A DNA stretch of 64,000 bases from Paraburkholderia sp. BL23I1N1 (GTDB lineage Bacteria; Pseudomonadota; Gammaproteobacteria; Burkholderiales; Burkholderiaceae). Positions within the stretch are counted from its first letter, which is position 1; each line of letters starts with the position of its first letter. The DNA is taken from NCBI RefSeq assembly GCF_003610295.1, contig NZ_RAPV01000001.1, forward strand, positions 2,728,001-2,792,000. Direction: 5' to 3'. Below, piece after piece: positions 7,381 to 28,631 of the stretch. The notes beneath the pieces were generated by a model. It saw nothing but the letters and a program-made list of their open reading frames with translations. It was not told the origin of the DNA and searched no databases. A program made the position numbers and the translations under genes.

Positions 7381-9000
7381 TCAACTCCACATCAAAATGA
7401 AATTCGTTGTCTCACCCACAGACGCCTCGATCAGCAGCAACTCATCTTGCCATTGAACATGAACAGCATCACAAGCGTCGATTCGACTCGCGTTGCCGGA
7501 CGCAACTTTCATCGCGTTCCTGTATAGCGTCCAATTGCCCGAACGACCACGCGCGTTGCCGATCTCCAGGCGGGCGGTCCGATCGGCCCCAATACTTCTC
7601 AACGTCAAGACCAGCGCGTCGCGTTCCCTCGAGAAGATCGCGCGCAGGACGTCGATCTTTTCGCTCAGCCCGTGTAACGCAGGCTGCTTGAAATGCTCCT
7701 CCTCCCATGGATGGTTGTAAAGCGTGCGCAACCCATCCTTCACGTTAAGACGCGCGTGAGCGATCGACCCGTTTCCGCACCATGGATCCATATAGGTGAG
7801 GTGGCCTTCGTCGTTCCAGCTGACGTCATTGCGCGGATAATAAAGCCCTCCGTCACGCCACGACGGCTGCATGAAACGATCGGCATGAGCGAGGAGTCCG
7901 GCGAGGCGTTCCTTGTCGCCGACCTCGGAAATGAACGGGAGAATGAAGGCGAGATCGTAATAGCCGGTGTTGAAAACATGCCGACGAAAATCTACGCATA
8001 CCTCCGGATCCTTGTCTGATGCAATGGCTGCGTGCACCTGTTCGGCCAATTGCATAGGCCAGATCGAGATTGTCCCATCGGGGCCTTCCCTGAAGACTTC
8101 ATCGAAGTTCCGTGCGTAAAACTCCCGTACGATTACCGGATTCCATGTGTTCATGAATGTCAGGGAATAGGCATCCCAAACGCTCGCATAACCGGGTTCA
8201 AGTTTGAAATCCTCAGTCGGTTTATAGAAGACGACCAACTTACCCTTATCGGTGATCCAACCTTTCTGCTCCCATGCCGACTGGAAGCTTCGCGTGAGAT
8301 CCGTCGTTATATTTGTTCCCCGCCGGATGTCGTTGAGACGCTGGCCAATGATTGCGTACTGATTGCAGACGACGAAGGTCATGTTCGGCTCACACGAAAC
8401 GCCGAGGAACCCAGTCTCCGCCATTTGCCAATAGATCCTCTCGTTGAGAGAGCCAAGGTCGTACTCGAAAGTCAGCGGCCCTCCGCCATAGGGGAAGGGA
8501 TATTCAAGATTGAGACCACCTGGTTTTTCGTAGCGGTCGTCGTCGAACAGGACGGCATGCAGACCGGCCATCACCGCCAATCGACCGCTATACATGATAT
8601 TTTCTTTGACGACGGGATCAATCCAACCTTGACGCGGCCCGCTGAGTGTCTTGTCATACCAGGGCCCAGATGTACTCATGTCTCGCCAATAATTCCAGAC
8701 ATCGACGCGGCGCATCTTCTCAATGAGCTTGATCGACGTTTCGCGAAATGCACCTGGGGCTGCGGGCAGATGGTGATAATGCGCGAGGGCAAGGGCCCAG
8801 TACAGCGCACCGAGTTGCTTGAAAATGGTCCCGCCTGCATGCCATGAATCGGGCCCGCCCATGTACGACCAATCGCCTGAAAACTGGTTGGCAAGGTTAT
8901 GTATATTGCGAATGTGGCCGACCTGCTGATCGTCCAGCACAGCCAAACCGGAAACATCGAAAGGTGCATGATTGACCGCATCGGCGTCATCTCTGGTCAT
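7381..9000 (-). CDS. Linalool dehydratase/isomerase (LDI) family protein, paralogue 1
   Basis: A 539-residue protein of the LDI family, whose characterised member from Castellaniella defragrans interconverts geraniol, linalool and myrcene and acts on other tertiary allylic alcohols. The signature block is VSCEPNMTFVVCNQ: C203 and C212 have the nine-residue spacing of the two catalytic cysteines of LDI (GIVCEPDNYFVQCNS). The upstream block KENIMYSGRLAVMAGL (residues 132-147) matches the LDI 'KENIMYKGHLNLMYGL'. The (alpha/alpha)6 core covers about residues 20-430. The remaining ~110 residues look like an extra beta-rich domain absent from the 397-residue reference. No signal peptide is visible, unlike the periplasmic reference. 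It lies in an ALDH-SDR-LDI-SCO operon, and GGAG precedes the ATG. The exact substrate is unknown. Confidence 0.82.
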   Translation of the reverse strand: MTRDDADAVNHAPFDVSGLAVLDDQQVGHIRNIHNLANQFSGDWSYMGGPDSWHAGGTIFKQLGALYWALALAHYHHLPAAPGAFRETSIKLIEKMRRVDVWNYWRDMSTSGPWYDKTLSGPRQGWIDPVVKENIMYSGRLAVMAGLHAVLFDDDRYEKPGGLNLEYPFPYGGGPLTFEYDLGSLNERIYWQMAETGFLGVSCEPNMTFVVCNQYAIIGQRLNDIRRGTNITTDLTRSFQSAWEQKGWITDKGKLVVFYKPTEDFKLEPGYASVWDAYSLTFMNTWNPVIVREFYARNFDEVFREGPDGTISIWPMQLAEQVHAAIASDKDPEVCVDFRRHVFNTGYYDLAFILPFISEVGDKERLAGLLAHADRFMQPSWRDGGLYYPRNDVSWNDEGHLTYMDPWCGNGSIAHARLNVKDGLRTLYNHPWEEEHFKQPALHGLSEKIDVLRAIFSRERDALVLTLRSIGADRTARLEIGNARGRSGNWTLYRNAMKVASGNASRIDACDAVHVQWQDELLLIEASVGETTNFILMWS

Positions 9001-9033
9001 TGTCTACTCCGTGTCTATCTGTCTTTTTTCTAT

Positions 9034-9780
9034 TCAGATCGTCCGACCACCATCGACCGGCAACTCGATGCCGGTAAGGAAATTGGCGGTTGCGAGATAG
9101 CAAGCGGCTTGCGCAACGTCGTCCGCCTCGCACAAACGCCCTAACGGAATTGTGTCAACGAATTTCTTGCGCGCCTCCGTCGTGTCAGGTACGCCTAAAA
9201 ACGACTCCAACATGCCAGTGGCCCCGATCACCGGGCAGATCGCATTGACTCGAATTTTCCACGGCGCCAATTCGACTGCGAGTGACTTGGAAAGTATATT
9301 GACCGCCCCCTTGGAACCGTTATACCAAGTCAGACCGGGACGAGGGCGAATGCCAGCCACTGAACCAACGTTTATGATTACTCCCCCACCGTTCTCACGC
9401 ATCGCCGGCACCACAGCCTGGGACATGTGGAAAATCGACTTGACGTTGACGTTGAACACGCGGTCGAAAGTCGCTTCGTCCACGTCGAGAAGTGACTGAT
9501 TGCGGTGGGTATATCCAGCATTGTTGACTACGATGTCAGGTACACCGAACGCCTCGCTCACTTTCGCGAGTGCAGCGTCGATTTCCGCACGCGAAGATAC
9601 GTCGACACGAACGGCGATGGCCCGCCCCCGGCCTAAACGCGCGGCTACTTCACTCGCCTTCTCTTCATTCAGGTCGAGCAGCGCGACTTTAGCGCCACCA
9701 TCAGCAAAATGTCGCGCAATAGCCGCGCCAAATCCGCCAGCTGCACCTGTCACGATGGCGATCTTATCTTGCAGACTCAT
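9034..9780 (-). CDS. Short-chain dehydrogenase/reductase (SDR)
   Basis: A 248-residue classical SDR. It shows the cofactor motif TGAAGGFG (residues 11-18), the NNAG motif (86-89), the catalytic triad S140, Y153 and K157 (GSVAGI, then YNGSK) and the C-terminal PVDGG. Asp at the end of the second strand (ALLDLN) suggests NAD preference. It sits between an aldehyde dehydrogenase (31 bp upstream) and the LDI-family gene (33 bp downstream), so it may oxidise the alcohol formed by LDI1 before the aldehyde dehydrogenase acts. A 3-hydroxyacyl role is possible too, but no CoA enzyme is in this operon segment. Confidence 0.9.
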   Translation of the reverse strand: MSLQDKIAIVTGAAGGFGAAIARHFADGGAKVALLDLNEEKASEVAARLGRGRAIAVRVDVSSRAEIDAALAKVSEAFGVPDIVVNNAGYTHRNQSLLDVDEATFDRVFNVNVKSIFHMSQAVVPAMRENGGGVIINVGSVAGIRPRPGLTWYNGSKGAVNILSKSLAVELAPWKIRVNAICPVIGATGMLESFLGVPDTTEARKKFVDTIPLGRLCEADDVAQAACYLATANFLTGIELPVDGGRTI

Positions 9781-9811
9781 AGGGTTGTCTCATATGTAGG
9801 TATGACAGCGC

Positions 9812-11260
9812 TTAACCGTGGTGCTGGACCATGGTTTTCGTCGTAGTGAAATCGTGGAGAGCGGCGAAACCTTTTTCTCGCCCATGGCCACTCTTTCGCG
9901 ACCCGCCGAAAGGTAGCTCGATTCCAGCACCCGCGCCGTAACAATTGATGAAAACCTGTCCTGCCCTCAGACGCTTGCCAACCCGAATCTGACGTGCCCC
10001 ATCGCGGGTCCAGATGCCGGCGGCCAGGCCGTACTCGGTGCTATTGGCCAATTCAATGGCGTCCGCCTCGTCTTCGAAAGGCAGCACACAGAGCACCGGG
10101 CCAAAGACTTCCTCGTGCGCCAACGAGTTGTCGCGCGGTACCGGCCCAAACAGCGTCGGCGTGGTGTAGAAACCATGCGGATCGACACCATCCTCAATCA
10201 GCCCTTGCGCCAGCACCGGTACGCCGGCCCGTACAGCGGCGTCGATGAAGCCCTGCACTCGTGTCTGCTGTTTGTGCGTAATGATCGGTCCGCAATCGCG
10301 CCTCATTTCCGGCGCACCCACCCGCACGCGGACAAAGGCATCGGCCAAACGCTTCACGAAGGTGTCGTAAGCGCTACGCTGAACCAGCACACGGCTTCCA
10401 GCCGAGCAGGTTTGCCCGCTATTCTGGATGATCGCGTTGATGATGACGGGAACGGTGGAGTCGAAGTCGGCATCGGCAAACACAAGTTGCGGCGATTTTC
10501 CTCCCAGTTCCAGCGTGCAGGTAATGTAGTGATCAGCACACAGCTTCTGTATGATCTGCCCTACCTGGGGCGAGCCGGTGAAGGACATGAAATCCACCCC
10601 GCCGTGCGCGGCCAGGGCCGCGCCGGCGGTCGCACCGGCTCCCGTGACGACGTTGATTGCTCCCGGTGGAAAGCCGATCTCTGTTGCAACCTCCGCCAAT
10701 CGCAAAGCGGTAGCGCAAGCGTCCTCGGCAGGCTTAAGCACGGTGGCGTTCCCGGCAGCCAGCGCCGGCGCCAGCGTACGGCCGAACATTTGCGCCGGAT
10801 AGTTCCAGGGCAGGATGTGACCGGTGACACCGTGAGGCTCCCGCAGCACGGACACTTGATAGCCTGTCTGATAGGGAATGGTCTCGCCGTGCAGCTTATC
10901 TGCGGCACCGCCATAGAACTCGAAGTAGCGCGCCAATGCAGCGATGTCTGCTTTTGCGACCTGAATCGGCTTACCCGTATCACGGGATTCCATCGTCGTA
11001 AGTTCGTCGGCGAGATCTGCTATTCGCTGTCCAAAACGACTGAGAAGCCGACCACGTTCACATGCACTGGTGCGTCCCCATGCCCCTACGTCATAGGCTG
11101 CTCGGGCTGCTGCGACGGCCGCGTCGACATCCCGTGCGTCGCTGTCGGCAATCTGGCCGTATGACCGGCCGGTTGCCGGCTCTATGGTTGGCAAAGTCGC
11201 CTCGCTGTGCGGCGCTCGCCACTCGCCATCGATGAAATTTTTGCTGGACTCCAAATTCAT
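9812..11260 (-). CDS. NAD(P)-dependent aldehyde dehydrogenase
   Basis: A 482-residue ALDH-superfamily enzyme. The catalytic residues are E251 in LELGGKSPQLVF and C285 in NSGQTCSAGSR. The cofactor segments PWNYP (151-155), FTGS (227-230) and 'EEVFGPVLCVLPF' are complete. It is the first gene of the minus-strand LDI1 operon and is transcribed away from the LysR gene at 11523. The 262-bp gap to that gene holds a 21-bp palindrome. The likely task is oxidation of an aldehyde made from the LDI product to its acid. The size and motifs resemble betaine- or phenylacetaldehyde-type enzymes, but substrate cannot be set from sequence. Confidence 0.92.
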   Translation of the reverse strand: MNLESSKNFIDGEWRAPHSEATLPTIEPATGRSYGQIADSDARDVDAAVAAARAAYDVGAWGRTSACERGRLLSRFGQRIADLADELTTMESRDTGKPIQVAKADIAALARYFEFYGGAADKLHGETIPYQTGYQVSVLREPHGVTGHILPWNYPAQMFGRTLAPALAAGNATVLKPAEDACATALRLAEVATEIGFPPGAINVVTGAGATAGAALAAHGGVDFMSFTGSPQVGQIIQKLCADHYITCTLELGGKSPQLVFADADFDSTVPVIINAIIQNSGQTCSAGSRVLVQRSAYDTFVKRLADAFVRVRVGAPEMRRDCGPIITHKQQTRVQGFIDAAVRAGVPVLAQGLIEDGVDPHGFYTTPTLFGPVPRDNSLAHEEVFGPVLCVLPFEDEADAIELANSTEYGLAAGIWTRDGARQIRVGKRLRAGQVFINCYGAGAGIELPFGGSRKSGHGREKGFAALHDFTTTKTMVQHHG

Positions 11261-11522: not shown

Positions 11523-12443
11523 ATGAACATGGAGCTACGACACCTGCGATACTTCCTGGCGATTGCTGAGGAATTGCATTTCACTCGGGCGGCAGAACGC
11601 GTGGGCATCGGACAGCCTCCTCTGAGCCAGCAAATCAAGCAGCTTGAAGAGGAGTTGGGGGCCCCTTTATTCCTACGCACGGCCCGCGGAGTGGCCTTGA
11701 CTGCAGCAGGTGAAGCATTCAGGCCGCACGCCGAAGCCGCCATACGCGAAGCTGAGCGTGCGGAGCTTGCGGTCCGGCGCGTCGCATGCGGAGAGCAAGG
11801 CAATATCCACATCGGCTTCACCAGCTCGGCGTCTTTCAACCCGTTGGTACCCGCCATCATCAGCAGTTTCCGCGAAGTCAATCCGGACGTAGAAATTAAC
11901 CTGGTTGAGGAAACTTCCTCATCGTTACTCACCCACCTCGCCAACACCAAGCTCGACATCGCATTTTTGCGAGCAGCCCTTGTCGAAAGAAGTGCATTGA
12001 CCACAGTGGCCCTGCCTGACGAACCTTTATGGATCGCGTTGCCAGCGAGACATCCGCTGGCCGAACGTACCGAGTTGAGATTGGTTGAATTGGCGAGCAC
12101 TCCATTCATCCTGTATCCACGCCGCAACGGAAATCTGCTTTACGACACCATCATCTCGGCATGCCGCAGCGTCGGCTTCAGCCCTAACGTCGTCCAGGAA
12201 GCTCCGCAAATGGCTTCAATGGTTAACTTCGTCGCCGCTGGCGTGGGCGTCGCGCTAGTGCCCCGTTCCATGTGCCAACTGCACGCCGAAGGTGTGTCCT
12301 ATGCGCGTATCTCACCTCCTGCACCCACTGCAATGCTCTGGCTTGCGCATCATCGGACGGACAAAATATCGAGCGTAATCCACGCATTCATGCGTTGCGC
12401 CGAAACTATCTTGCAAGCCCGGTCAACGGGGTTGCCCCGATAA
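11523..12443 (+). CDS. LysR family transcriptional regulator
   Basis: A 306-residue LTTR of the BenM/CatM/CbbR-like size class. The winged helix-turn-helix is at the N-terminus (MELRHLRYFLAIAEELHFTR, then QPPLSQQIKQLEEELGAPLF, then LTAAGEAF), and the effector-binding domain begins near residue 90 (GNIHIGFTSSA) and ends with MVNFVAAGVGVALVP. The second Met (11529, MELRHL) is the more usual start. It is divergent from the ALDH-SDR-LDI1 operon and is its obvious regulator, with a palindromic site between them. Confidence 0.9.
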   Translation: MNMELRHLRYFLAIAEELHFTRAAERVGIGQPPLSQQIKQLEEELGAPLFLRTARGVALTAAGEAFRPHAEAAIREAERAELAVRRVACGEQGNIHIGFTSSASFNPLVPAIISSFREVNPDVEINLVEETSSSLLTHLANTKLDIAFLRAALVERSALTTVALPDEPLWIALPARHPLAERTELRLVELASTPFILYPRRNGNLLYDTIISACRSVGFSPNVVQEAPQMASMVNFVAAGVGVALVPRSMCQLHAEGVSYARISPPAPTAMLWLAHHRTDKISSVIHAFMRCAETILQARSTGLPR

Positions 12444-13995: not shown

Positions 13996-15495
13996 TCAGC
14001 GCAGCTCGAACTCCACCGGCCGGTCGGCGCGATAGCCACCGCCCAGCGCCTTCGCCAGCGCGATCTGCTGGCTGATCCGCTGCCCATCGAGATCGAGCAG
14101 TCCAACGCGCTCGGCAATCCACGGCTGCCGAGCCTCCATGGCGGCGAGCCGGCTCACGAGTCCGCGCTGATAGTGCGCTTCGGCACTGTCCTTCGCAAAT
14201 ACAATGGCCGCCACCTTCTGCTGCTGCAGACGAGCTTCTGCGTCGAGGTCCTGCAAACGGCTGCCTGTCATCGCCACATCGCGCACCGCGTTGAGCACCG
14301 CCTGGTTGTATTGCTCGATCAGCGTGTTGCTCGCCGTGCGCGTGCCGCTGAGGTTCGCGTTCAGGCGGCCGCCGTCGAAAATCGGCAGGTACAGGCCGGG
14401 AATCAGATTGATCTGCTGGCTCGCATGGGTGAAGATATCAGCGAGATGCAATGCGTTGAAGCCGAAAAAAGCCTTGATATCGAAGGTCGGATAGAACGCG
14501 GCTTTGGCCGCGTCGATCCGGTCAAACGACGACTCGACGTACCAGCGCATCGCCTGCAGATCGGGACGGCGTGCGAGCAGTTCGTAGGCAAGCGTCGGCG
14601 GCAGGCTCGCCTGCGATTGCGGCAGCGATACCGGCTCGATATCGGGCAGGTTACCGGCTCCGGCGCCGATGAGCGCGCGCAACGATTCGCGAAACTGCCT
14701 GATCTGGCCTTGCGCGGCAACGATCTGCCGTTGCACGGCGAGTTGTTGCGCGCGTACTTCTTCCGTGCGCGTACGCGCTTCGAGGCCTCGCGCCGCACGC
14801 GCACTGTGCGATTCGACGGCAAACGCCGCGACCTCCTGCGATTGTTCCAACAGATCGATTAACTGATAGGTGGTCTGAATGCCGTAATAGAGCTGCGCCA
14901 CGTCGGTGGAGATTTCTAGCTCGACCGCGGATGTCTCTGCAATCCGCGCGTTGTGCACGCCGAGCGACGCGGCCACTTGCGCGCGCTGCTTGCCCCAGAT
15001 ATCGACGTTCAGGCTGGCGCCGAATCCGACGATACCCTCGGTGTACCAGGGACCGGTCAACCCGAGCGCGGGTTCGTTCAACGCGTATGGCCCGAGAAAA
15101 CCGTTCGCCGAGACATGCTCACGGTCGATCGCGCCCAGCGCGACCACCTGCAGACCTGAGCCGGCCTTCACGAGCTGAACATCCGATTTTGCCTGCGCCA
15201 CCCGCATACGCGCGATCACCATGGTGGGCGCCCCGGCGAGCGAGCGATCGATGAGCGCATCGAGCTGCGGATCGCCATAGCCGGTCCACCAGCGCGCCGA
15301 AGGCCAACCATCGCGCGCCAGATGAATATCGTCGGCGAGACGGATCTGCTCGGGTGCGATGGTCGCGTCTGGCTTGCCATTCTCATGGATCAGCGCGCAG
15401 CCGGCCAGAAAGCAGCCTACCGCGCAGCCTAGTGCGGCGGCCCAGGTGCCGACGCTGCGCAACCCACTCACACCGACGCGGTCAGGCTGGATCAC
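13996..15495 (-). CDS. Outer-membrane factor lipoprotein (NodT/OprM family) of an efflux system
   Basis: A 499-residue TolC-like outer-membrane channel of the NodT lipoprotein branch. The lipobox is LAGC with the acylated cysteine at C33. Two repeated OMF domains follow; the first begins WWTGYGDPQLDALIDRSL and the second includes LARRPDLQAMRWYVESSFDRIDAAKAAFYPTFDI, both characteristic. It is the last gene of the YtcA-HlyD-FUSC-OMF operon and its start overlaps the FUSC stop by 14 bases. With those partners it forms a tripartite pump across both membranes, most likely for aromatic carboxylic acids. Confidence 0.93.
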   Translation of the reverse strand: MIQPDRVGVSGLRSVGTWAAALGCAVGCFLAGCALIHENGKPDATIAPEQIRLADDIHLARDGWPSARWWTGYGDPQLDALIDRSLAGAPTMVIARMRVAQAKSDVQLVKAGSGLQVVALGAIDREHVSANGFLGPYALNEPALGLTGPWYTEGIVGFGASLNVDIWGKQRAQVAASLGVHNARIAETSAVELEISTDVAQLYYGIQTTYQLIDLLEQSQEVAAFAVESHSARAARGLEARTRTEEVRAQQLAVQRQIVAAQGQIRQFRESLRALIGAGAGNLPDIEPVSLPQSQASLPPTLAYELLARRPDLQAMRWYVESSFDRIDAAKAAFYPTFDIKAFFGFNALHLADIFTHASQQINLIPGLYLPIFDGGRLNANLSGTRTASNTLIEQYNQAVLNAVRDVAMTGSRLQDLDAEARLQQQKVAAIVFAKDSAEAHYQRGLVSRLAAMEARQPWIAERVGLLDLDGQRISQQIALAKALGGGYRADRPVEFELR

Positions 15496-17650
15496 GTTCG
15501 TTTGACTCCCGAATGTTGGGCGAAAACCGCGCCTCGCCGTGCCAGTCCGGCAACGCGGATATTTCCCGCATGAGGTTATGCGCGCACGCCATCAGCCATG
15601 CATGCGGCGATGGCCCCTGCTGTGCCTCGCTCGGCTCGTCGAGTGCCGCTTCCTGCTCCAGTGCACGAACGGCCTCCGAGGCTGCCGCCGCACGCGGCGA
15701 GCGCGCCGCCGACGGCTGGGCAGCAAGCCCGTCCGCATAGCGCGCAAGATCGGCCGACGCCTGCAGCAGAACCGCCCGCGCCGCGTCATAGGCAGCGTCG
15801 CGCACGCGCGGATCCCGCACGACGAGCGCATTGTGAAGCGCATTGCCGGCCAGCATGATCTCGCGCGCCTCGCCCAGCACCGTTTGCGCGAGCACCGTCA
15901 ATTGCGCCTGCGGCGCTTCCTGCCAGCTCGGCTCCAGCGCGACACGCGCAAGCATCGCCTCGCAGTCGCCGAGCGACATCCACGTTTGCAGTTGAAGCTG
16001 CGCGTAAGGCAACTGGCCCGCTGCAGCGTCGGCTGCAACCGGCTCGGCAAGCAGCGCGCTCACCGAACGCAACGTGGCCGCCAGCTTCCGCCGCAGCACA
16101 TCGCCCTCGCCCTCGCGCCAGAACGACATCTGGATCGCCGTCGAGACGGCCACGCCCAGCAGGATGCCCACCATGCGGTCGCGGATTTCGGTGAGGTTCG
16201 TGGTGGGCCAGAACCCGGCAAGCAACGCGAGCGAGAACGTGAACACGATCTGAATGCCCGCATAGGCGATACGCTCGGAGCCGGCCGCCACCCATGCCCC
16301 CGCTGCAAACACCGGCAAGCTCATCAGCAGCAGGCCGGTGATGCTGTCGAGGTGCGGGACCACGAACACCACCATGAACAGCGCAAGCGCGCTGCCGGCC
16401 ATCGCTCCGCCGATGCGCAGCATCGCGCGCTGCGTGGACGCACCCAGGCTCGGCAACGCGACGATCACACAGGTAAGCATGATCGTGTGAATGCCCTGCC
16501 AGTCGGCCGCGTTGTAGAACACATAGCAAATCAGCACCGCGAGGAGCGTCTTCAGCGAGAAGCGCACGTAAGCCGGATTGCTCAGTGCGTCCGGCGCCAC
16601 CATCGGCTCCTCGGCCGGCGCGCCGTGCGCGGATGCATCGTGCGCATGGGCGTCACTCAACGCGTGAAGTGCCCGCAGCATCTCTTCAACCGTGGCCGGC
16701 ACGGCCACTGGATCGCGCTGCCCCACGGACGCGGCGCCCACTAAACGATATGGCTGCCCGGCCGCCACCATCGAATCGAGCGCGCGGCAATTTGCACCCA
16801 CCTCGCTCAACACGTTTGCCCCGAACGCCAAGGACGAGGACGCACGGGGGGATTCCGCCTGAAGCTCGCTCGCTGCACGATAAAGACGCGAAACGGTTGC
16901 GATGCAGGCTAGCCGGTAGACCTGCTCCTCGCGAACGCGCGCACTGCGCATCGCCGCGAATTTCAGCAGCTTCTGAAGAGTCAGCGCACCTTGCTGGACC
17001 GAAAGCAGCGAAATCGGCTCGGGCTGCGGGCCGCCGTCGATCACCCAGACCAGTGACGCATCGACGGCCATCAGTTGCCGGTGAATCTCCTCGTTGAGCT
17101 GCAGTTCCGGTTCGGCAGGCAACAGCAGCGAATTGATGAGCAGCGTAAGTGCAATCGGATAGTTCACGGCAACCCATACCCACAGCACCGCGCGAATCAG
17201 AAGTTCCGCCTGGTCGGTCCGGTCCACGAAGGTTTGCACATAGATGATCACGATCGCTACGATGAAGAACACCACCCCGATCTTCAGGACGCGCATCAGA
17301 TAGACGCTGCCCAGAAACAGCAGGCTCGCCACCACGATGCGCACCAGCGGGTAATCGAACGTGAACTTCAGCAGCAGGATCGAGGTGCCGATGGCGAGCG
17401 TCGAGCCAACAATGAACATGATGCCCACCAGCCTCGTGACCACGACGTTCGCCTGCGTCACGTAGAACACGACCAACAGCGAAAGCGGGAGTTCCGGCAC
17501 CTCGAGCGCCATGGACGTCGCAATGACGATCGCGCTCGTGAGCACGCAGCGCAGCATGATGTTGGTGCGTCCCGGATAAGCCGCGAGCTGGCCGCGCAGG
17601 AACGATCCTGCATGAAGCAGGCTGTCCGGTACATAGTCTGCGACTCGCAT
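15482..17650 (-). CDS. FUSC family inner-membrane transporter (AaeB/YccS-like)
   Basis: A 722-residue protein with two hydrophobic blocks (about residues 25-165 and 365-510), each with about six helices, separated by and followed by cytoplasmic regions. This is the layout of the fusaric-acid-resistance (FUSC) family, which includes the p-hydroxybenzoate exporter AaeB. It lies 8 bp after the HlyD gene and overlaps the outer-membrane factor gene, so all three are one operon. Substrate is inferred from family only: weak aromatic acids or similar toxic intermediates, which would suit a catabolic neighbourhood. Confidence 0.92.
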   Translation of the reverse strand: MRVADYVPDSLLHAGSFLRGQLAAYPGRTNIMLRCVLTSAIVIATSMALEVPELPLSLLVVFYVTQANVVVTRLVGIMFIVGSTLAIGTSILLLKFTFDYPLVRIVVASLLFLGSVYLMRVLKIGVVFFIVAIVIIYVQTFVDRTDQAELLIRAVLWVWVAVNYPIALTLLINSLLLPAEPELQLNEEIHRQLMAVDASLVWVIDGGPQPEPISLLSVQQGALTLQKLLKFAAMRSARVREEQVYRLACIATVSRLYRAASELQAESPRASSSLAFGANVLSEVGANCRALDSMVAAGQPYRLVGAASVGQRDPVAVPATVEEMLRALHALSDAHAHDASAHGAPAEEPMVAPDALSNPAYVRFSLKTLLAVLICYVFYNAADWQGIHTIMLTCVIVALPSLGASTQRAMLRIGGAMAGSALALFMVVFVVPHLDSITGLLLMSLPVFAAGAWVAAGSERIAYAGIQIVFTFSLALLAGFWPTTNLTEIRDRMVGILLGVAVSTAIQMSFWREGEGDVLRRKLAATLRSVSALLAEPVAADAAAGQLPYAQLQLQTWMSLGDCEAMLARVALEPSWQEAPQAQLTVLAQTVLGEAREIMLAGNALHNALVVRDPRVRDAAYDAARAVLLQASADLARYADGLAAQPSAARSPRAAAASEAVRALEQEAALDEPSEAQQGPSPHAWLMACAHNLMREISALPDWHGEARFSPNIRESNERDPA

Positions 17651-17658
17651 GGTGCCCC

Positions 17659-18720
17659 TCAGCCGTGTTCCGCTGCGTTGCCACGCCCGGGATTCAGCAC
17701 GGCAACCGCCGACGTGCCGACGCGAAACAGCTCGGGGTTCGGATTCTCCACGCGGATCTTGACCGGAAACCGCTGCGAAACGTGCACCCAGTTGAGGCTG
17801 CGCTGAATGCGCGGCAGGCCGCCCGGCAGCGCCAGCCCGCCCTCGTCCGGCAGCACGCCGTAGCTCACGGAGTCGACCACCCCGCGAAACCGCTGACTCG
17901 TGTCGTTCATCAGATAGACCGTAGCCGGCGTGCCGGTGTGCACGCCTTTGAGTTCGGTCTCGCGGAAGTTCGCCACCACGTACCAGTGACGCGTATCGAT
18001 CAGCGTGAACACCGGCTTGAGCGCGGACGCGAATTGTCCCGTGGAGGTTTTCAGCGACACGACCCGCCCGTCGAACGGCGCGCGCACGGTGGCGTATTCG
18101 AGATTGAGTTCGGCAATCGCGATCTCGGCCATGACCACAGCACGCTGGGCGACGATGGCATCGACGCCGCTCACGGCCGCCGCTGCCTGCTGCGCCTGCA
18201 GCCGTGCGGCGTTCAGTTGCGCGGCGGCCGCGCGCTGGGCGGTGCGCGCGCGGTCGACGTCCTCGGAGGAAACATAGCCCTGCAACAAGAGCGGCTCGGT
18301 CCGGTGCAGGGTATCGTCCGCCTGGACAGCGGCGGCGCGGGCGCTTTCGACCGCGGCCTGCACGGATTTCGCGTTGTACTGCTGCGCATTGACCGTGCGC
18401 TGTGTGAGCTCGATCTGCCGGTCCAGCGCGACAAGGGACGCCTTCGCGCGGGCCAGCGCGTCCTGGTACGGACGCGGATCGATCTGGAGCAGCAAGTCGC
18501 CCTGCTTGACGGCCTGGTTATCGTGCACGGCAAGCGCCACGATGCGGCCATTGACTTCCGGCACGACGTCTGTCGTGTCGGCATAGGCATACGCATCGTC
18601 GGTTCGCGGCGAACGATCGAGCAGCGCGATCACGAAGATCAGCAGCGCGGTCGCGATCAATACCAGCGCGATGGCGGGCCAGGTCTTCTTCTTCGATACT
18701 TTGCCGGCGGTCGTCGTCAT
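17659..18720 (-). CDS. HlyD/AaeA-type periplasmic adaptor (membrane fusion protein)
   Basis: A 353-residue membrane fusion protein. One N-terminal membrane anchor (about residues 13-32, AIALVLIATALLIFVIALL) is followed by the lipoyl-like half (VNGRIVALAVHDNQAVKQGDLLLQID), a helical hairpin of about 100 residues, and the second half with TVRAPFDGRVVSL and NFRETELKGVHTGTPA. This matches EmrA/AaeA adaptors. It follows the YtcA-like gene by 20 bp and precedes FUSC by 8 bp, bridging the inner-membrane transporter and the outer-membrane factor. Confidence 0.93.
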   Translation of the reverse strand: MTTTAGKVSKKKTWPAIALVLIATALLIFVIALLDRSPRTDDAYAYADTTDVVPEVNGRIVALAVHDNQAVKQGDLLLQIDPRPYQDALARAKASLVALDRQIELTQRTVNAQQYNAKSVQAAVESARAAAVQADDTLHRTEPLLLQGYVSSEDVDRARTAQRAAAAQLNAARLQAQQAAAAVSGVDAIVAQRAVVMAEIAIAELNLEYATVRAPFDGRVVSLKTSTGQFASALKPVFTLIDTRHWYVVANFRETELKGVHTGTPATVYLMNDTSQRFRGVVDSVSYGVLPDEGGLALPGGLPRIQRSLNWVHVSQRFPVKIRVENPNPELFRVGTSAVAVLNPGRGNAAEHG

Positions 18721-20317: not shown

Positions 20318-21847
20318 TTACTCATCGAGCTTGTACAGTTCTTTTCGAAGAATCTTGCCGGTGCTTGTCTTGGGCAAATCATCGACAATCTGATAGAGCC
20401 GCGGAACCTTGTAAGCGGCCAGCCTCTCACGACAGTGCCGCTCGAGATCTGCCACATCAAGCGTTACTCCGGATCTGGCGACGACATATGCCTTCGCCAG
20501 CTCACCCTTGGTCTCGTCTAAGATGCGACCGACGGCCGCCATGGCAACGCCCGGATGCTCAGCAAGCACGCGCTCGAGTTCCGCCGGGTAAATATTGAAC
20601 CCGCCCGTAATGATGAGGTCTTTTGATCGGTCCATGATGAAGATGAACCCGTCTTCATCCATTCGCGCCAGGTCACCCGTGCGCAGCCATCCGTTATCGA
20701 GCAGCGTTTCAGCAGTTGCAACGGAATTCCCGACATATCCTTGCATTGTGACCGGGCCGCGTATCTGCAGTTCACCGACTTCACCCGCGGCGAGGACGCT
20801 TTGGCCGTCGTCGCTGTTGGCAATGCGTGCCTGCAGGTGCGGCAGTGCAGTTCCGATCGATCCGTGCTTCTTTGGTCCGTAGAGCGTTTGTGTAGTGCCC
20901 AAACCGCCGAGTTCGGTCATGCCCCAAAGTTCGATCAGTGGGCATCCGAATGCTGCCTCCACGGCGCGCATCTTCGCTTCCGGCATTGCCTGCCCACCTA
21001 CGGTAGCCCGGATCAGAGACGATAGGTCATATTCTCCGAGCTGCGGGAAATCGAGCATGTACATGTACATCGTCGGAACTCCCTCCAACAATGTCGCGCG
21101 ATAGCGCTGAATGCTTTCGAGCATCCGTGCCGCGTCGAACGTCCGATGCAGCACCAGCGTGCCGCCATACGCGAACATCGTATGCATCACGATGTTGCCG
21201 TAGACATGCGTGCATGGCAGCGCGCTGACAACGATGTCATGCGCGGTGCGCACGTGCATGACGGCAGTCATCGCTGTATTCATGACAATGGCTCTGTGCG
21301 ACAGCAACGCTCCTTTCGGATGCCCGGTCGTACCGGAGGTATAGCCGATCGAGCACGGATCGTCGAGGCTGATGCCTTCCACCGGATACCGCCTCGACGG
21401 GAGCGGCTCCTCTGCAAGAAGCTCAGCGAACGATATCGCGCCGGCAGGTACGTCGTCGCCGAATGCAATCTGCCATTCCAGTCGGGTCCTGTGCGACACC
21501 GCTTGCAAGGCACTGATCTTCTCGGCCGCACCGATCACCGCACGTGCACCGCAATCGTTCATCGCGTACGCGGCTTCGTCGGCAGTCAGCATCGAGTTCA
21601 ACGGATTGACCACCGCGCCAATCTTCACTGCGGCGTAGTACCCGATTATCCACTCGGGGCAATTCTGCGCGTACAGTGTGATGCAATCGCCACGCATGAG
21701 CCCCAGTCGCTCGAGTCCCGCGCACAGTGCAGATGACGCGCTATCGAGTTCGGCAATCGTCCAGCTTCGACTTTCGAATATCAGTGCGACCTTGTCTGGT
21801 TGGCGCTGCGCGCTCCGGGTGATGAATTCGCCGACAGAATTGTGCAT
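20318..21847 (-). CDS. Acyl-CoA synthetase (class I adenylate-forming ligase)
   Basis: A 509-residue AMP-dependent acid:CoA ligase. The phosphate-binding loop is YTSGTTGHPKG (about residues 168-178), followed by LIELWGMTELG (A5), LDNGWLRTGDLARMDEDGFIFIMDRSKDLI (A7/A8, with the hinge Asp) and the catalytic lysine motif PKTSTGKILRKEL at the C-terminus. It is close to medium/long-chain or short branched acyl ligases (FadD3/DitJ-like size). In context it could activate the acid produced by the aldehyde dehydrogenase to the CoA thioester used by the enoyl-CoA hydratase at 28621. Confidence 0.9.
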   Translation of the reverse strand: MHNSVGEFITRSAQRQPDKVALIFESRSWTIAELDSASSALCAGLERLGLMRGDCITLYAQNCPEWIIGYYAAVKIGAVVNPLNSMLTADEAAYAMNDCGARAVIGAAEKISALQAVSHRTRLEWQIAFGDDVPAGAISFAELLAEEPLPSRRYPVEGISLDDPCSIGYTSGTTGHPKGALLSHRAIVMNTAMTAVMHVRTAHDIVVSALPCTHVYGNIVMHTMFAYGGTLVLHRTFDAARMLESIQRYRATLLEGVPTMYMYMLDFPQLGEYDLSSLIRATVGGQAMPEAKMRAVEAAFGCPLIELWGMTELGGLGTTQTLYGPKKHGSIGTALPHLQARIANSDDGQSVLAAGEVGELQIRGPVTMQGYVGNSVATAETLLDNGWLRTGDLARMDEDGFIFIMDRSKDLIITGGFNIYPAELERVLAEHPGVAMAAVGRILDETKGELAKAYVVARSGVTLDVADLERHCRERLAAYKVPRLYQIVDDLPKTSTGKILRKELYKLDE

Positions 21848-23324: not shown

Positions 23325-24428
23325 TCACGGAATAACGATCGCCTTCAATACTTCGCCCTGCTCCGATGCTTGAACGGCCTCGTTGATTTGCGAAAGTGGG
23401 TACTTTTTGATCAGCCGATCGAACGGAAAGCGCCCCTGCTTCCATAGATCGATGAGTTGCGGAATGAAGATGTCCGGGATGCTGTCGCCCTCGATGATTC
23501 CCCTGACGTTCCGCCCAAACAGGATGGAATTCAGATCGAGCACGACCTCAGTCCCCAGTGGAGCGACACCGATCACGCCACAGGTGCCGGTCAGCCGCAG
23601 GCAATCGACAGCCTGACGCACAACCTTCGGAATCCCTGTGCATTCCAGCGAATATTGAACGCCTTCTCCCGCAGTAAGCGACTTGATTCTCTCTACAGGA
23701 TGGCCGTCGGCGGCGTTGATCGTGTGTGTTGCCCCCAACTCCTCGGCGAGCGCGAGCCTGCTGGCGTTGAGATCGACTGCGACGATCGTCGTGCATCCCA
23801 CCACTCGCCCTGCCATGATCGCGGACAGCCCGACCGACCCGGCACCAAACACCGCAATGCTCGACCCGGCGCCAGGCTTGAGTGCGTTCATCACGGCCCC
23901 CGCACCGGTCTGGATGCCGCAGCCAAGCGGCCCCATGATCTCGATCGGTACATCGTGGCGCACTTTGACGACGTTGCGCTCGGTCGCAAGAGCGAATTCA
24001 CCGAACGATGACTGGGCAAAGAAGTACCCCGCGAGCTTTTCGCCGTGCGCCGAACAGCAGGGCGACGAACCATCAGGCCGCGCACCTGAAAAGTTGCGTG
24101 CGTAAAGATCCGGGCAGTAGCCGTACAGTCCCTTCTGGCAGTTCGCGCACACACCACAACTCGCATAGGTAAGCACGACGTGATCACCCGGCGCGACCTT
24201 CGTGACGGCCGCGCCCACCTGCACCACGACGCCGGCCCCTTCGTGGCCGAGTACAGCCGGCAATGGCGTCGGGAAGTACTGGTCGCGCACGACCATGTCG
24301 GTGTGACATATGCCGGTACCGCGTATCTCGACAAGCACCTCGTGCTCGCGCGGCGCATCGAGCTGGATCTCTTCGAGTTCGAACAGGCCCGACTTCTCCC
24401 TTACTACAGCAGCTCTGATAGCTCGCAT
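23325..24428 (-). CDS. Zinc-dependent MDR alcohol dehydrogenase (benzyl alcohol / geraniol dehydrogenase-like)
   Basis: A 367-residue medium-chain dehydrogenase. The catalytic zinc ligands are C41 (GTGICHTD) and H62 (GHEGAG); the structural zinc site is C91, C94, C97 and C105; the cofactor fold has GAGSVGLSAI and an acidic residue after the second strand (AVDLN), favouring NAD. The sequence most resembles aryl/allylic alcohol dehydrogenases, the group containing geraniol dehydrogenase GeoA. I place the start at the ATG 24428, which has GGAG eight bases upstream. A longer frame to 24734 adds a non-homologous Arg-rich leader and is rejected. It lies 35 bp after the aldehyde dehydrogenase gene, so the pair forms an alcohol-to-acid oxidation unit. 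Confidence 0.92.
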   Translation of the reverse strand: MRAIRAAVVREKSGLFELEEIQLDAPREHEVLVEIRGTGICHTDMVVRDQYFPTPLPAVLGHEGAGVVVQVGAAVTKVAPGDHVVLTYASCGVCANCQKGLYGYCPDLYARNFSGARPDGSSPCCSAHGEKLAGYFFAQSSFGEFALATERNVVKVRHDVPIEIMGPLGCGIQTGAGAVMNALKPGAGSSIAVFGAGSVGLSAIMAGRVVGCTTIVAVDLNASRLALAEELGATHTINAADGHPVERIKSLTAGEGVQYSLECTGIPKVVRQAVDCLRLTGTCGVIGVAPLGTEVVLDLNSILFGRNVRGIIEGDSIPDIFIPQLIDLWKQGRFPFDRLIKKYPLSQINEAVQASEQGEVLKAIVIP

Positions 24429-24463: not shown

Positions 24464-25906
24464 TCACGCCATCGGCAACTTGCGCCGGATGGTCTGCAAG
24501 TTGGCGTACTCCGAGAGTCCGTGCAGTGAATTCTCGATGCCCATTCCCGACTGCTTGTGACCGCCGAACGCAACATGCGGTGAAAACGCGTGTGCCTGGT
24601 TGATCCAGACGGTCCCTGATTCCAGACGTGCGGCGATCCGTTGTGCGGCCTCGGTGTCGCGACTCCAGACCGACGCGGCAAGGCCGTAAATGGTGCGGTT
24701 CGCACGCTCGACGACGTCGTCGACGTCGCGCCATTTCAGTAATGGCAGCACCGGCCCGAATGCTTCCTCGGTTACGCAGCGCGCATCCTCGGGCGGATTG
24801 TCGATCAGCGTCACGGGAATGAAATAGCCTGGCTTCTCGTATACATCGCCGCCGAGCAGGAACGTGTGCCCCTGGGACTTCGAGTCGGCAATCAGATCAC
24901 GCACCTTCTCGTATTGCATCCGGTTTTGCAGCGGCCCGAGTTCGACGCCGGGTTCGAGCCCCAGGCCCATCTTCACGCCCTTCGCATAGGCGACGAGTTC
25001 GGCCGTGACGTCGTCGTAAATGGATTCGTGAACGTAGAGTCGCTTGCATGCGACGCAAAATTGCGCGCTATTTGCGAACGATGCCCAAAAAAGATCCTTT
25101 GCGATCGCCTTTGGATCGATATCGGGTAACACGATGCCCGGGTCATTCCCGCCCAGTTCCAGCGTCAGCCGCTTCAGGTTGCTCGCAGCGCTTTGCATCA
25201 CTTTCTTGCCGGTTGCCGTGGAGCCAGTGAACGAGATCTTGCCGATCTGCGGATGCTCGCTGAGCCAGCGACCCAGATCGTCACCTCCCGACACGATGTT
25301 CAATACGCCGGGCGGCAACACTTCCTGCGCTAGTTCGCCAAACCAGAGCGTGCACAGCGGCGTATAGGGCGATGGCTTGAGTACCATCGTATTGCCTGCA
25401 ACCAGCGCGGGCGCAATCTTCCAGATTGCCAGCAGAAGCGGGAAATTCCACGGTGTGATGCCACCGACCACACCGATAGGTGTATGCCGCGTGACGATCT
25501 CCTCGTTGCCGTCCGTTTCGAACACCTCGTCATCAAGCCGCTGCTTTGCGATTTCCCGACACCAGTGAACAGATCCGCCAATTTCCCATTCGGCCGCTGT
25601 ACGACTCTTGCCCTGCTCCGTGCTCAGCAACTGCACGAATGCCTCACAGTTGCGCTCGATAAGATCGCCGAGCCCAGCAACTGCCCGCTGGCGCTCCTCG
25701 ATCGGCATCGCGCTCCACGCCGGAAAGGCGCGGCGAGCGGCCGAAACGGCCGCTTCGAGGTCGTCTCTCGAACCTAACGGGTAGCGGCAAAATTCCTGTT
25801 CAGTGGCGGGGTTGATTACCGCACCAGTTTCTGTAGACGAAATTCGTTTGCCATCGATCGTTATCGCATAGGTCAGTTGCGCAAGCTCTGCAGCGGAAAG
25901 CTTCAT
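24464..25906 (-). CDS. Aldehyde dehydrogenase
   Basis: A 480-residue ALDH-superfamily enzyme with E250 (LTLELGGNDPGIVL) and C284 (ANSAQFCVACKRLYV) as catalytic residues. Family segments TPWNFP, FTGSTATGKKV and EEAFGPVLPLLKW are present. It is related to the semialdehyde/aliphatic branch (AldA/GabD-like). The residues before the catalytic cysteine are NSAQF instead of the usual NAGQV/NSGQT, a small active-site oddity. It heads a two-gene operon with the zinc alcohol dehydrogenase and is divergent from the TetR gene. A palindromic site lies 61 bp upstream. Confidence 0.92.
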   Translation of the reverse strand: MKLSAAELAQLTYAITIDGKRISSTETGAVINPATEQEFCRYPLGSRDDLEAAVSAARRAFPAWSAMPIEERQRAVAGLGDLIERNCEAFVQLLSTEQGKSRTAAEWEIGGSVHWCREIAKQRLDDEVFETDGNEEIVTRHTPIGVVGGITPWNFPLLLAIWKIAPALVAGNTMVLKPSPYTPLCTLWFGELAQEVLPPGVLNIVSGGDDLGRWLSEHPQIGKISFTGSTATGKKVMQSAASNLKRLTLELGGNDPGIVLPDIDPKAIAKDLFWASFANSAQFCVACKRLYVHESIYDDVTAELVAYAKGVKMGLGLEPGVELGPLQNRMQYEKVRDLIADSKSQGHTFLLGGDVYEKPGYFIPVTLIDNPPEDARCVTEEAFGPVLPLLKWRDVDDVVERANRTIYGLAASVWSRDTEAAQRIAARLESGTVWINQAHAFSPHVAFGGHKQSGMGIENSLHGLSEYANLQTIRRKLPMA

Positions 25907-25966
25907 TTACTCCATCCTCGGTTGAATGCGTAGTCGCTGTGGGGTTCAGCACTCGCGTTCGCTCGA

Positions 25967-25987: not shown

Positions 25988-26128
25988 CACTATCGCATCG
26001 GTTCCCGCGCCGGTCAAGAAAGTCTCTGCTAGTGGTTTTCCCGCGCGATCTCCGACGAGCCGGCGCCAGACACAATGGTCCACGGGTCTGCGCTATACTT
26101 CCCTGACGCCTTTCGTTGAACATCCAAG

Positions 26129-26833
26129 TTGAGCAAACGTATCCCTGGAAGCGGCAGCCTGAGTCGCGCAAAGACACCCGAAGACAAGGCACAGGTCAGG
26201 CGGGCATTCATCAACGCCGGCCGCCGCCTTCTGGCGCAAGAGCACCCATCCCAAGTTTCGCTTCGACGCATAGCGGCCGAGGCCGGCTATTCGCCGGCGT
26301 CCATTTACCAGTACTTCAACGATCACCGGGCGCTCTTCGTAGCCGTTCGTGAAAACGATCTGACTGCTGCTGCCGAGTATTTCGAGAAGGTTGCATCGGG
26401 CGCGACGGATCCGATCGAGCGCGTGCGCCAGGTGGCGATACGGTCGGTCGACTATTGGCTCAGCCGCCCCGAACAGTTCGACTTCCTTTTTTCCATGGTG
26501 GGAAAAAGTCCTGGCACAGCGGAAGATGGCGACATGCGCTTCGGAGAATCGCCCGTCGTATTGCGCGCACTCAACGTGTATTACCACGCCGTGGACGCGC
26601 TATTCGATACGCTCGCGGAGCCACCATTGCCTAATCGGCTTGCGGGGGACACGCTGATCGCCGCAATCTATGGGGTAGTACTCGTGCCTCGCACAACCCC
26701 GACGAAGCGTTGGTCCGACACCTACAAGATGGTCGAATTAACCGTCAACGCGATCATCGACAGTTGGCTGGCCAGCGGCGTCCATAACGGTAACGCCGAA
26801 GTCAGGAGCCCGGCGAAACGCAAGCCGCGCTAG
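26129..26833 (+). CDS. TetR family transcriptional regulator
   Basis: A 234-residue TetR protein. The helix-turn-helix is at about residues 24-70 (RRAFINAGRRLL, then SLRRIAAEAGYSPASIYQYF, then HRALFVAV). The only start in frame is a TTG at 26129, just after an in-frame stop and without a clear ribosome site, implying low expression. It is homologous along its length to the TetR protein at 833-1570. It is divergent from ALDH-ADH and upstream of the LDI2-ECH operon; matching palindromes in both promoters point to control of both. The effector is probably an alcohol, aldehyde or CoA intermediate of that pathway. Confidence 0.88.
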   Translation: MSKRIPGSGSLSRAKTPEDKAQVRRAFINAGRRLLAQEHPSQVSLRRIAAEAGYSPASIYQYFNDHRALFVAVRENDLTAAAEYFEKVASGATDPIERVRQVAIRSVDYWLSRPEQFDFLFSMVGKSPGTAEDGDMRFGESPVVLRALNVYYHAVDALFDTLAEPPLPNRLAGDTLIAAIYGVVLVPRTTPTKRWSDTYKMVELTVNAIIDSWLASGVHNGNAEVRSPAKRKPR

Positions 26834-26974
26834 GCGCCTCCCGCCTTACTCCGGTGCCTATTCCAGCGCGCCACGGAATCCAATCCCCATTCCCGATCAG
26901 TTAGCTCTGCCGGAGCGAGCATGCAGCCGCCATGCCCATCTCTGCATTGACAGAAGCGACAGCATTGTGTACTT

Positions 26975-26995
26975 TTAATTGAACGCGTTTATTAA
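26975..26995. promoter_or_regulatory. Predicted TetR operator B, upstream of LDI2
   Basis: An inverted repeat TTAAT-N11-ATTAA with the core GAACGCG lies 65 bp upstream of the LDI2 start. It matches operator A at 25967-25987 at 16 of 21 positions and sits at nearly the same distance from its gene. The surrounding 226-bp gap after the TetR gene holds no other feature that I can see. Confidence 0.6.
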
Positions 26996-27059
26996 TTGAC
27001 ATCCACTGGTCACATGACAACCAGAAGCGAGCCTTGCAGCCCAGATCTTCAGGAGACAA

Positions 27060-28631
27060 ATGAGCAACGAAACGATACGCTGCCAATCAGCGACGGTGCC
27101 AATGCTGGATGAACTTCAGGCTGGCCATTTGCAGCACATCCTCAATCTTGCCGCCAGACTGCCTGACGACTGGTCCGGCATGCAAGGCAAAACCTCGCTA
27201 CAGGAGGACTTCGGCTCGCTCCGGTTCCAGCTCGCCTACATGTCGTACGCACTGGCGCTGACCCATGTACACCGCCTGCCCGCGGCGCCCGCTGTGTTTC
27301 GCCCCGCATTCGATGCACTCGTGCAGAAGATGTTGTCGCCAGACGTCTGGACATATTGGCATTACGTGAGCACCGGCAACGGTCCCTTCAATAGCTCGCT
27401 TGGCGAATTGCCGCCGCAATGGGACCCCGTCGCTACCGACAACATCATGTATAGCGCCTATGTGCAATCGATGGCCCTTCTGTATCACTACCTGTTCCGC
27501 GACCCAAAATATGCGGCACCGGGCGCGCTGACCTTCTCGGTCAATCCTCTGTTCTGGGCCTCGGGCGGCAAGCATTTCTCTTACGACGAGCGTTCGCTGA
27601 ATGGACATCTCTACTGGAATATGGTCGAGCGCGGCTACCTTGGCATCGCCTGCGAACCGAACTGCGTGTTTCAGGTGTGTAACCAGATACCCATTCTCGG
27701 CTTTCGTCTTCACGACATGGTCTACGGTGGATCGCTGGCGAAAGAAGTGACCGATGGGTATCTGCGAGCCTGGTCCGATTTCGGCGTGCTGGACGGTACG
27801 GGTCACTTCAACATGATGATCCAGGAGAAGGAGCGCAGAGTGATCACACCACCGAACGGTGCGCCATGGACCGATTTCTGGACGGCATCGATGATGCACG
27901 CGTGGAATCCGGCCTTCGTCGAGGAGCACTATCCACGGCAAATCACGAAGTGGTCGATTGAAGGACCGGACGGCTCGCTGACCATCCGGCCATCGCCACC
28001 GCTGTCGCCCAGCAGTGCCGCGGCACCGTCGGCGCGCGACTTCGGATGGGCGGCAGTGTGCGCCTCCGAGGTCGGCGACCACGACACGTTGGGACGTTTG
28101 CTTGCCTACGCGGACCACTTCCTTCAGCCCATATGGAGGGACGGCGGGTATTTCTATCCCCGCCGCGACGAAGCGCTCGACGGCGCCGGGCGGCCGATCG
28201 CAATGGATCCGCATACCGGCAACGCCTTGCTGTCCTATGCGCGGCTGAATGTTCCCCATGGTCTGCGCAAGCTTTATGACGATCCCTGGACGACCACCGC
28301 TCATTTCGATGAGCCGGCGCTCGTCGAAATGAGCCCTGCTCTCGACGTTCGCAGCGCCTGGTTCAACAAAGACGAGTCACTCCTGACACTGAGGCTTGGC
28401 CCGCCATCCGGGCTGGCACCTGTGGCTACGCTTTCGATCGGCAATCATTGGAATCGCGGCAACTGGAAGTTCAGTATCAATGGCGTGCTGGTCGCATCCG
28501 GCAGTGCGCGTGAGGTGACAAGCCACACAGGCATCAACCTACGTCGAGCAGACGACACCTTGCTCATTGAATTACCGCTAAGCGGATTTCTGACCATCAC
28601 CATCCAATGGGACAGCACAAGTGACAAATAG
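27060..28631 (+). CDS. Linalool dehydratase/isomerase (LDI) family protein, paralogue 2
   Basis: A 523-residue paralogue of the protein at 7381-9000, similar over the full length. The cysteine pair is C198 and C207 in GIACEPNCVFQVCNQ, with the same nine-residue spacing as in characterised LDI; a third cysteine, C202, lies between them. The block DNIMYSAYVQSMALLYHYLF (residues 127-146) replaces the LDI ENIMY block, with Asp for Glu. The C-terminal ~120 residues (from about 405) form a beta-rich extension absent from the reference enzyme. There is no signal peptide. AGGAG precedes the ATG. The stop overlaps the start of the enoyl-CoA hydratase by 11 bases. Likely role: dehydration or isomerisation of a tertiary alcohol. 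Confidence 0.82.
   Translation: MSNETIRCQSATVPMLDELQAGHLQHILNLAARLPDDWSGMQGKTSLQEDFGSLRFQLAYMSYALALTHVHRLPAAPAVFRPAFDALVQKMLSPDVWTYWHYVSTGNGPFNSSLGELPPQWDPVATDNIMYSAYVQSMALLYHYLFRDPKYAAPGALTFSVNPLFWASGGKHFSYDERSLNGHLYWNMVERGYLGIACEPNCVFQVCNQIPILGFRLHDMVYGGSLAKEVTDGYLRAWSDFGVLDGTGHFNMMIQEKERRVITPPNGAPWTDFWTASMMHAWNPAFVEEHYPRQITKWSIEGPDGSLTIRPSPPLSPSSAAAPSARDFGWAAVCASEVGDHDTLGRLLAYADHFLQPIWRDGGYFYPRRDEALDGAGRPIAMDPHTGNALLSYARLNVPHGLRKLYDDPWTTTAHFDEPALVEMSPALDVRSAWFNKDESLLTLRLGPPSGLAPVATLSIGNHWNRGNWKFSINGVLVASGSAREVTSHTGINLRRADDTLLIELPLSGFLTITIQWDSTSDK

Follow-up and report, generated by a model that had tools for sequence, protein, structure and literature searches.

The 64,000-nucleotide stretch of Paraburkholderia sp. 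BL23I1N1 analyzed here (the window; contig NZ_RAPV01000001.1, positions 2,728,001 to 2,792,000) encodes two long members of the linalool dehydratase/isomerase (LDI) family, LDI-1 and LDI-2, together with a soluble protein of the SCO1/SenC (Sco) family whose gene, at 6871-7377, was overlooked in an earlier note on the two LDI genes. Genes for this distinct Sco type accompany long LDI genes in genomes across Actinomycetota and Pseudomonadota, and the two proteins very probably work together. As a tentative explanation, which we favor over its rivals, the Sco may be a dedicated cytoplasmic partner that keeps the catalytic cysteine pair of an LDI-like isomerase active. The features on which this argument rests are the following.

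6871..7377, minus strand: soluble SCO1/SenC-like protein, 168 residues, 3 bp downstream of LDI-1 (PF02630, 147.5 bits; cut-off 22.8)
7381..9000, minus strand: LDI-1, long LDI-family protein, 539 residues (barrel about 19-437, beta tail about 441-538)
8392..8394, minus strand: codon for Cys203 of LDI-1, aligned with LDI Cys170 and invariant in 237/237 homologues
8365..8367, minus strand: codon for Cys212 of LDI-1, aligned with LDI Cys179 and invariant in 237/237 homologues
27060..28631, plus strand: LDI-2, long LDI-family protein, 523 residues (barrel about 12-416, beta tail about 420-517)
27651..27653, plus strand: codon for Cys198 of LDI-2, aligned with LDI Cys170
27678..27680, plus strand: codon for Cys207 of LDI-2, aligned with LDI Cys179

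We examined the linkage in 80 loci, those retrieved of 114 relatives, which come from named genomes across the two phyla plus two Gemmatimonadetes bins. A Sco-like match lay on the same strand within 300 bp of the LDI gene in 67 of them (60 downstream, 7 upstream). Elsewhere it was found about 520 bp downstream (two loci), 1.3-1.6 kb upstream (two) or 8.2 kb upstream (one), so that 72 of the 80 retrieved stretches carried it and 8 did not. Five of these 8 Sco-less stretches belong to genomes that carry the linked type elsewhere: beside another LDI gene in two cases, as in the window genome, at a distance of 10-19 kb (same contig) in two, and on another contig in one. Altogether, 77 of the 80 loci sit in a genome with a linked Sco. 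In the 62 loci with both flanks available, the inner 4.5 kb held the Sco gene 58 times, and the zone from 4.5 to 9 kb never did. Chance adjacency was rejected as an explanation, because the 9.1-Mb window genome holds only 5 PF02630 matches, yet the genes are adjacent in 67 of 80 loci. In a phylum-level sample of 398 genomes, full-length long LDI proteins and the linked Sco type were both confined to the same two genomes and were adjacent in both, one of which (G713) is apparently the same assembly as locus L029 and so not independent of the 80-locus set. A literature search, mostly without subscription journals, found no paper joining linalool dehydratase with Sco1 or SenC, and four that mention it along with copper.

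The linked Sco proteins are of a distinct, soluble type. The window Sco has C38 and C42 in a CxxxC arrangement and a distal H128; none of the 72 linked Scos lacks CxxxCP or VDPxRD, and a pattern recognized the motif histidine in 71 of them, the remaining one (L083) retaining a histidine by eye. None of the 72 has a hydrophobic N-terminal stretch, and they lack the membrane anchor of canonical Sco chaperones, which face the periplasm, bind copper and serve cytochrome oxidase; the two ordinary Scos of the window genome have lipoboxes. With a single model, the 73 linked Scos (the 72 plus the window's) scored 206-269 bits and no other examined Sco exceeded 187.4, although the profiles were built from these same loci and the scores are partly circular, which is not true of the Pfam match and the genome search. 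A line at 200 bits was set after the first scores had been seen, and the later scoring placed the linked and other Scos on either side of it. The window Sco scored 252 bits, compared to 136 and 129 for its genome's two ordinary Scos; the best Scos of two genomes with a short LDI (G386 and G646) reached 139 and 138, and that of a genome with the L090 type of long LDI-family protein (G420) reached 162. In a tree with 18 ordinary Sco controls, a single branch separated all 73 linked Scos from the controls, with a Shimodaira-Hasegawa-like approximate likelihood ratio (SH-aLRT) support of 99. Six further Sco matches in the 398 genomes (174-190 bits) were considered as LDI-less members of the linked type and rejected, since each has a hydrophobic N-terminus and none scores as high as the lowest of the linked Scos. 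An N-terminal CC motif occurs in 8 of the 72 linked Scos (L008, L013, L014, L017, L030, L036, L065 and L072); with the exception of L013, these loci have the Sco gene upstream of the LDI gene. The linked Sco of L010 carries a CC motif at its C-terminus.

Both LDI reading frames lie where the earlier note had placed them, and their assignment to the LDI family was borne out: the Pfam profile PF18566 (Ldi) matched LDI-1 at 320.4 bits and LDI-2 at 378.3 bits, far above chance and the curated cut-off of 26.1. The ENIMY and DNIMY blocks described in the note are present, and the cysteine pairs that it had singled out, C203/C212 in LDI-1 and C198/C207 in LDI-2, align with C170/C179 of LDI. This pair is invariant in 237 of 237 homologues, a set comprising the two window proteins and the best 120 matches listed for each (565 and 393 in all). 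AlphaFold2 models (mean predicted local distance difference test scores of 93.7 for LDI-1 and 91.2 for LDI-2) agreed with the proposed architecture, showing the (alpha/alpha)6 barrel in both proteins and tails made of strands only (441-538 and 420-517). Matches in a structure search mostly stopped near residue 420-437, with two extending to 433-453; matches to GH127 had low template-modeling (TM) scores. NCBIfam had no model matching LDI-1, LDI-2 or the linked Sco, and the literature search found no mention of PF18566.

The note's figure of about 130 extra residues corresponds to 142 in LDI-1 and 126 in LDI-2, compared to the 397-residue LDI precursor of Castellaniella defragrans (our reference, from genome L089, which encodes the published chain fragments). 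Its wording on an extra domain and an uncharacterized extended form was not supported. At least 480 residues are present in 232 of the 237 homologues, so that the tail is not peculiar to LDI-1 and LDI-2 and the short C. defragrans enzyme looks like the exception. A long cytosolic relative, linalool isomerase (Lis), has already been assayed according to the available text of PMC4791888. The claim that both proteins lack a signal peptide is compatible with their hydrophilic N-termini (hydropathy 1.03 for LDI-1 and 0.35 for LDI-2, compared to 1.67 for the less hydrophilic C. defragrans signal peptide). The same hydropathy scan, with a cut-off of 2.0, found a strongly hydrophobic N-terminus in none of the 237 homologues, including LDI-1 and LDI-2, which is weak evidence on export as the known C. 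defragrans signal peptide also falls below that cut-off.

By alignment, the window proteins retain Cys170, Glu171, Cys179, Met124 and Phe176 of LDI. The key LDI residues named in the accessible part of PMC12455561 are H128, Y44, D38, C179 and C170. The His128 position is occupied by Arg140 in LDI-1 and Tyr134 in LDI-2, and among 82 long proteins by Tyr in 68, His in 10 and Arg in 4. Both positions of the capping disulfide C48-C101 show a gap or a residue other than cysteine, and in the poorly aligned N-terminal region around Asp38 and Tyr44 the pair Asp43-Trp44 may be the counterpart. Since the window proteins show neither His128 nor the disulfide nor an export signal, we did not classify them as LDI itself; by sequence, they are LDI-like members of PF18566. 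A further alternative, which we consider improbable, is that allylic tertiary alcohols are not substrates of the long LDI proteins at all and that the barrel and cysteine pair have been reused by another hydro-lyase or isomerase.

The two copies, which the note had described as diverged and as belonging to separate operons, are 37% identical and do lie in two separate clusters of catabolic genes. In a tree of the 82 long proteins, those with Tyr at the His128 position are set apart by a branch (SH-aLRT 81) and include LDI-2; LDI-1 was placed with the His/Arg proteins, where it forms a long branch of unsure position. The two are therefore old relatives and not products of a recent duplication; another genome also carries one close relative of each (P0062 and P0125). 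As their groups differ at the His128 position, it is plausible that LDI-1 and LDI-2 differ in substrate or chemistry; the note had proposed two tertiary alcohols, or dehydration and isomerization divided between the two enzymes. About 46 kb outside the window, the same genome has a third LDI-2-like sequence, a truncated fragment (G000:C1:2838286-2838603, L003) with 90% identity to LDI-2 over 105 residues and 93.5% over 309 bp, and suggests that a further copy has been lost. It directly adjoins the end of a transposase, presumably IS6-like.

Long LDI genes occur in few genomes, 2 of 398 in the phylum-level sample. PF18566 was found in none of 58 relatives searched, including all 34 same-genus members of that set, and in an order-level sample of 399 genomes it occurred in this genome and two others, one with a C. 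defragrans-like short LDI and one with the L090 type. The latter represents a second long subfamily (1481 matches to a two-sequence profile, of which the best 120 were listed) that retains both cysteines and the tail motifs.

We tentatively favor a mechanism in which LDI-1 and LDI-2 would be long cytoplasmic enzymes acting on a tertiary allylic alcohol. From the analogy with LDI and Lis, we infer that the hydroxyl group would be shifted to give a primary allylic alcohol (chemistry of the type that turns linalool into geraniol or 2-methyl-3-buten-2-ol into prenol), with acid-base catalysis by C203/C212 in LDI-1 and C198/C207 in LDI-2. The linked Sco would interact with the enzyme as a dedicated partner and pass electrons to it, keeping or restoring the catalytic cysteines in a reduced, active state in an aerobic cytoplasm, and the single Sco gene would serve both LDI copies. 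In the available text of PMC6600392, LDI needs dithiothreitol and its Cys170 and Cys179 must remain reduced; Lis also depends on a reductant (PMC4791888, available text). Sco proteins bind copper through a CysXXXCysXnHis motif, also perform thiol-disulfide oxidoreductase chemistry, and are normally membrane-attached, as described in the accessible part of PMC6696091. When a soluble Sco is linked to an enzyme that has two catalytic cysteines, it would thus most likely either reduce the pair or load copper onto it, and we rated reduction somewhat above copper because the nearest characterized enzymes need a reductant and are described, in the available literature, without a metal.

The main rival, which we regard as rather unlikely, is that the Sco acts as a copper chaperone for a long LDI that is itself a copper enzyme, with Cu(I) in a sulfur-rich pocket (C203, C212, Met136 and Met47) or at the almost invariant His74-x-His76, where it would bind the alkene or polarize the hydroxyl group. 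The copper motif described in PMC6696091 (accessible part) is kept in the linked Scos, and in the 82 long proteins Met47, Met136 and His74 are invariant and His76 is present in 80. Met47 is an extra invariant, found in 60 of 61 proteins of a window-family sample, in 0 of 60 of the L090-type subfamily and not in C. defragrans LDI. His74 and His76, however, sit at a helix end lying away from the cysteine pair by predicted helix order. The CC motif at the N-terminus of some linked Scos would also fit copper handling, but terminal CC motifs serve as redox arms as well. Copper-handling families were absent from the 25 commonest of 113 neighbor families, in a tally that scanned 123 of 269 neighbor open reading frames (ORFs), and the available parts of the LDI literature describe that enzyme without a metal. 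A more specific joint version, in which long LDIs are the first cytoplasmic enzymes to be copper-loaded by a Sco, with Cu(I) on two cysteines and two methionines binding the alkene in a metal-olefin isomerase derived from, or ancestral to, metal-free LDI, is a slim prospect.

The link could also be indirect, the Sco serving as a peroxidase-like or sensing thiol protein against oxidative stress, or as an assembly factor for LDI oligomers, and leaving the LDI cysteines untouched. Thioredoxin folds have many roles, which speaks for such a function, but the Sco linkage is specific to LDI while other neighbors vary, and we consider an indirect role unlikely. In yeast, Sco proteins have been linked to oxidative stress defense (PMC6307045, available part), which counts in its favor.

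The genes around LDI-1 and LDI-2 are compatible with an isomerase feeding a degradation pathway. They are listed here in order of position.

9034..9780, minus strand: short-chain dehydrogenase (PF13561/PF00106), 33 bp upstream of LDI-1
9812..11260, minus strand: aldehyde dehydrogenase (PF00171, 515 bits), first gene of the LDI-1 run
11523..12443, plus strand: LysR-type regulator (PF03466 and PF00126), divergent from the LDI-1 run
20318..21847, minus strand: acyl-CoA ligase of the LDI-2 cluster (PF00501, 298 bits; 710 bits to a near-LDI CoA-ligase profile that included the window gene itself)
23325..24425, minus strand: zinc-dependent alcohol dehydrogenase resembling benzyl alcohol dehydrogenase, LDI-2 cluster (start set manually)
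24464..25906, minus strand: aldehyde dehydrogenase of the LDI-2 cluster (PF00171, 510 bits; 714 bits to a near-LDI aldehyde dehydrogenase profile that included the window gene itself)
26129..26833, plus strand: TetR-type regulator (PF00440) upstream of LDI-2
28621..29460, plus strand: enoyl-CoA hydratase (PF00378, 238 bits) overlapping the end of LDI-2 (start codon called mechanically)

LDI-1 and its Sco are the last of four closely spaced genes, after those for the aldehyde dehydrogenase and the short-chain dehydrogenase. In the LDI-2 cluster, the alcohol dehydrogenase, aldehyde dehydrogenase and CoA ligase genes are on the strand opposite to LDI-2, and the alcohol dehydrogenase scored 430.8 bits against PDB 5tnx, 381.9 against benzyl alcohol dehydrogenase (1f8f) and 575 against a near-LDI alcohol dehydrogenase profile. 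The C. defragrans route runs from LDI to an alcohol dehydrogenase and an aldehyde dehydrogenase (PMC4109377, available text), and the gene logic of the window fits this order. The LDI-2 neighbors suggest allylic tertiary-alcohol catabolism, in which local dehydrogenases would oxidize the alcohol to an aldehyde and an acid, and the CoA ligase and enoyl-CoA hydratase would feed the acid into beta-oxidation. Across the 62 loci with both flanks, alcohol dehydrogenase genes were clearly enriched near LDI (18 near, 3 far), based on ORFs from a simple length and GC3 (third-codon-position GC content) caller, some of which are spurious.

Several other genes were observed in these neighborhoods. Both Panacagrimonas loci (L039 and L042) have a flavin monooxygenase-like gene upstream of LDI that could supply a tertiary alcohol. 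Between the two LDI clusters of the window lies an efflux set (13996-18720, minus strand) of an outer-membrane efflux protein, a FUSC-family protein and an HlyD-type adaptor. An ORF at 31490-32200 is possibly a remnant, as it encodes no more than the C-terminal region (Pyr_redox_dim and the end of Pyr_redox_2) of a protein similar to dihydrolipoamide dehydrogenase. Positions 32981-48309 look like an opine-type catabolic cluster, with an FAD oxidoreductase (SO_alpha_A3 and BFD domains), a DAO oxidoreductase, a LysR regulator, an amino-acid ABC transporter, two MmgE/PrpD proteins and an octopine/nopaline dehydrogenase-domain protein (PF02317).

A number of observations weigh against an LDI-like isomerase kept reduced by the linked Sco. 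LDI-2 has no Sco gene beside it, and the linked type was not found in three LDI-bearing metagenome bins, which may be incomplete. A correlation between LDI and Sco distances speaks for the pairing (Mantel test on the 66 of 73 pairs kept on thinning; r 0.45, a value that none of 2000 permutations reached), but the test does not control for host ancestry. The cytoplasm already has thioredoxin and glutathione, so that a special reductase is not obviously needed, and the histidine kept in the linked Scos is needed for a metal and not for thiol exchange, which fits copper better. LDI's His128 and capping disulfide are not conserved, as described above. Near LDI, aldehyde dehydrogenase genes were weakly enriched (14 near, 9 far), and CoA ligase (13 and 13) and enoyl-CoA hydratase genes (1 and 2) were not; at least two of alcohol dehydrogenase, aldehyde dehydrogenase and CoA ligase occurred within 10 kb in just 21 of 80 loci.

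A soluble, apparently cytoplasmic Sco tied to a metabolic enzyme and not to cytochrome oxidase would, to our knowledge, be unusual. LDI is of industrial interest for converting tertiary alcohols to alkenes, but is oxygen-sensitive and reductant-dependent (PMC6600392, available text). A long relative that is widespread in many aerobic-type genera and has a conserved helper gene could offer a route to a sturdier enzyme through Sco co-expression, and the two window copies would permit tests of one helper serving two enzymes.

Among known systems, C. defragrans LDI (LinD; PDB 5hlr, 5g1u and 5i3t) shares with the window proteins the (alpha/alpha)6 barrel, the CEP-x6-C motif with both cysteines, the NIMY block, Met124 and Phe176. 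This bacterial enzyme is a pentamer that interconverts the plant scents myrcene, linalool and geraniol. It differs in being a 397-residue exported protein with a C48-C101 disulfide cap and no tail; in the window proteins C48, C101 and His128 are absent, and Met47 and His-x-His are present instead; its genome has Scos only in the ordinary range, the best at 138.9 bits, on other contigs. Lis of Thauera linaloolentis 47Lol is similar in its cytosolic catalytic part (about 505 residues) and in its dependence on a reductant, but has four N-terminal transmembrane helices in a protein of 644 residues (cytosolic part 140-644), according to the available text of PMC4791888; in our search for it, none of the best 120 of 1481 matches was named as Lis. 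The L090-type long PF18566 proteins share both cysteines of the block, Glu204 and tail motifs such as Pro440, Ala454 and Leu463, and differ in having Phe at Met136 and no Met47. In the one genome representing this type (G420), the best Sco lies on another contig and has a lipobox-like N-terminus. With SCO1/SenC proteins (PF02630; PDB 4wbj ScoI and 2ggt human SCO1), the linked Scos share the thioredoxin-type family match, CxxxCP, VDPxRD and the motif histidine; unlike ordinary Scos, they lack the anchor or lipobox and the CPDxC form of the controls, form a group of their own, and are linked to LDI.

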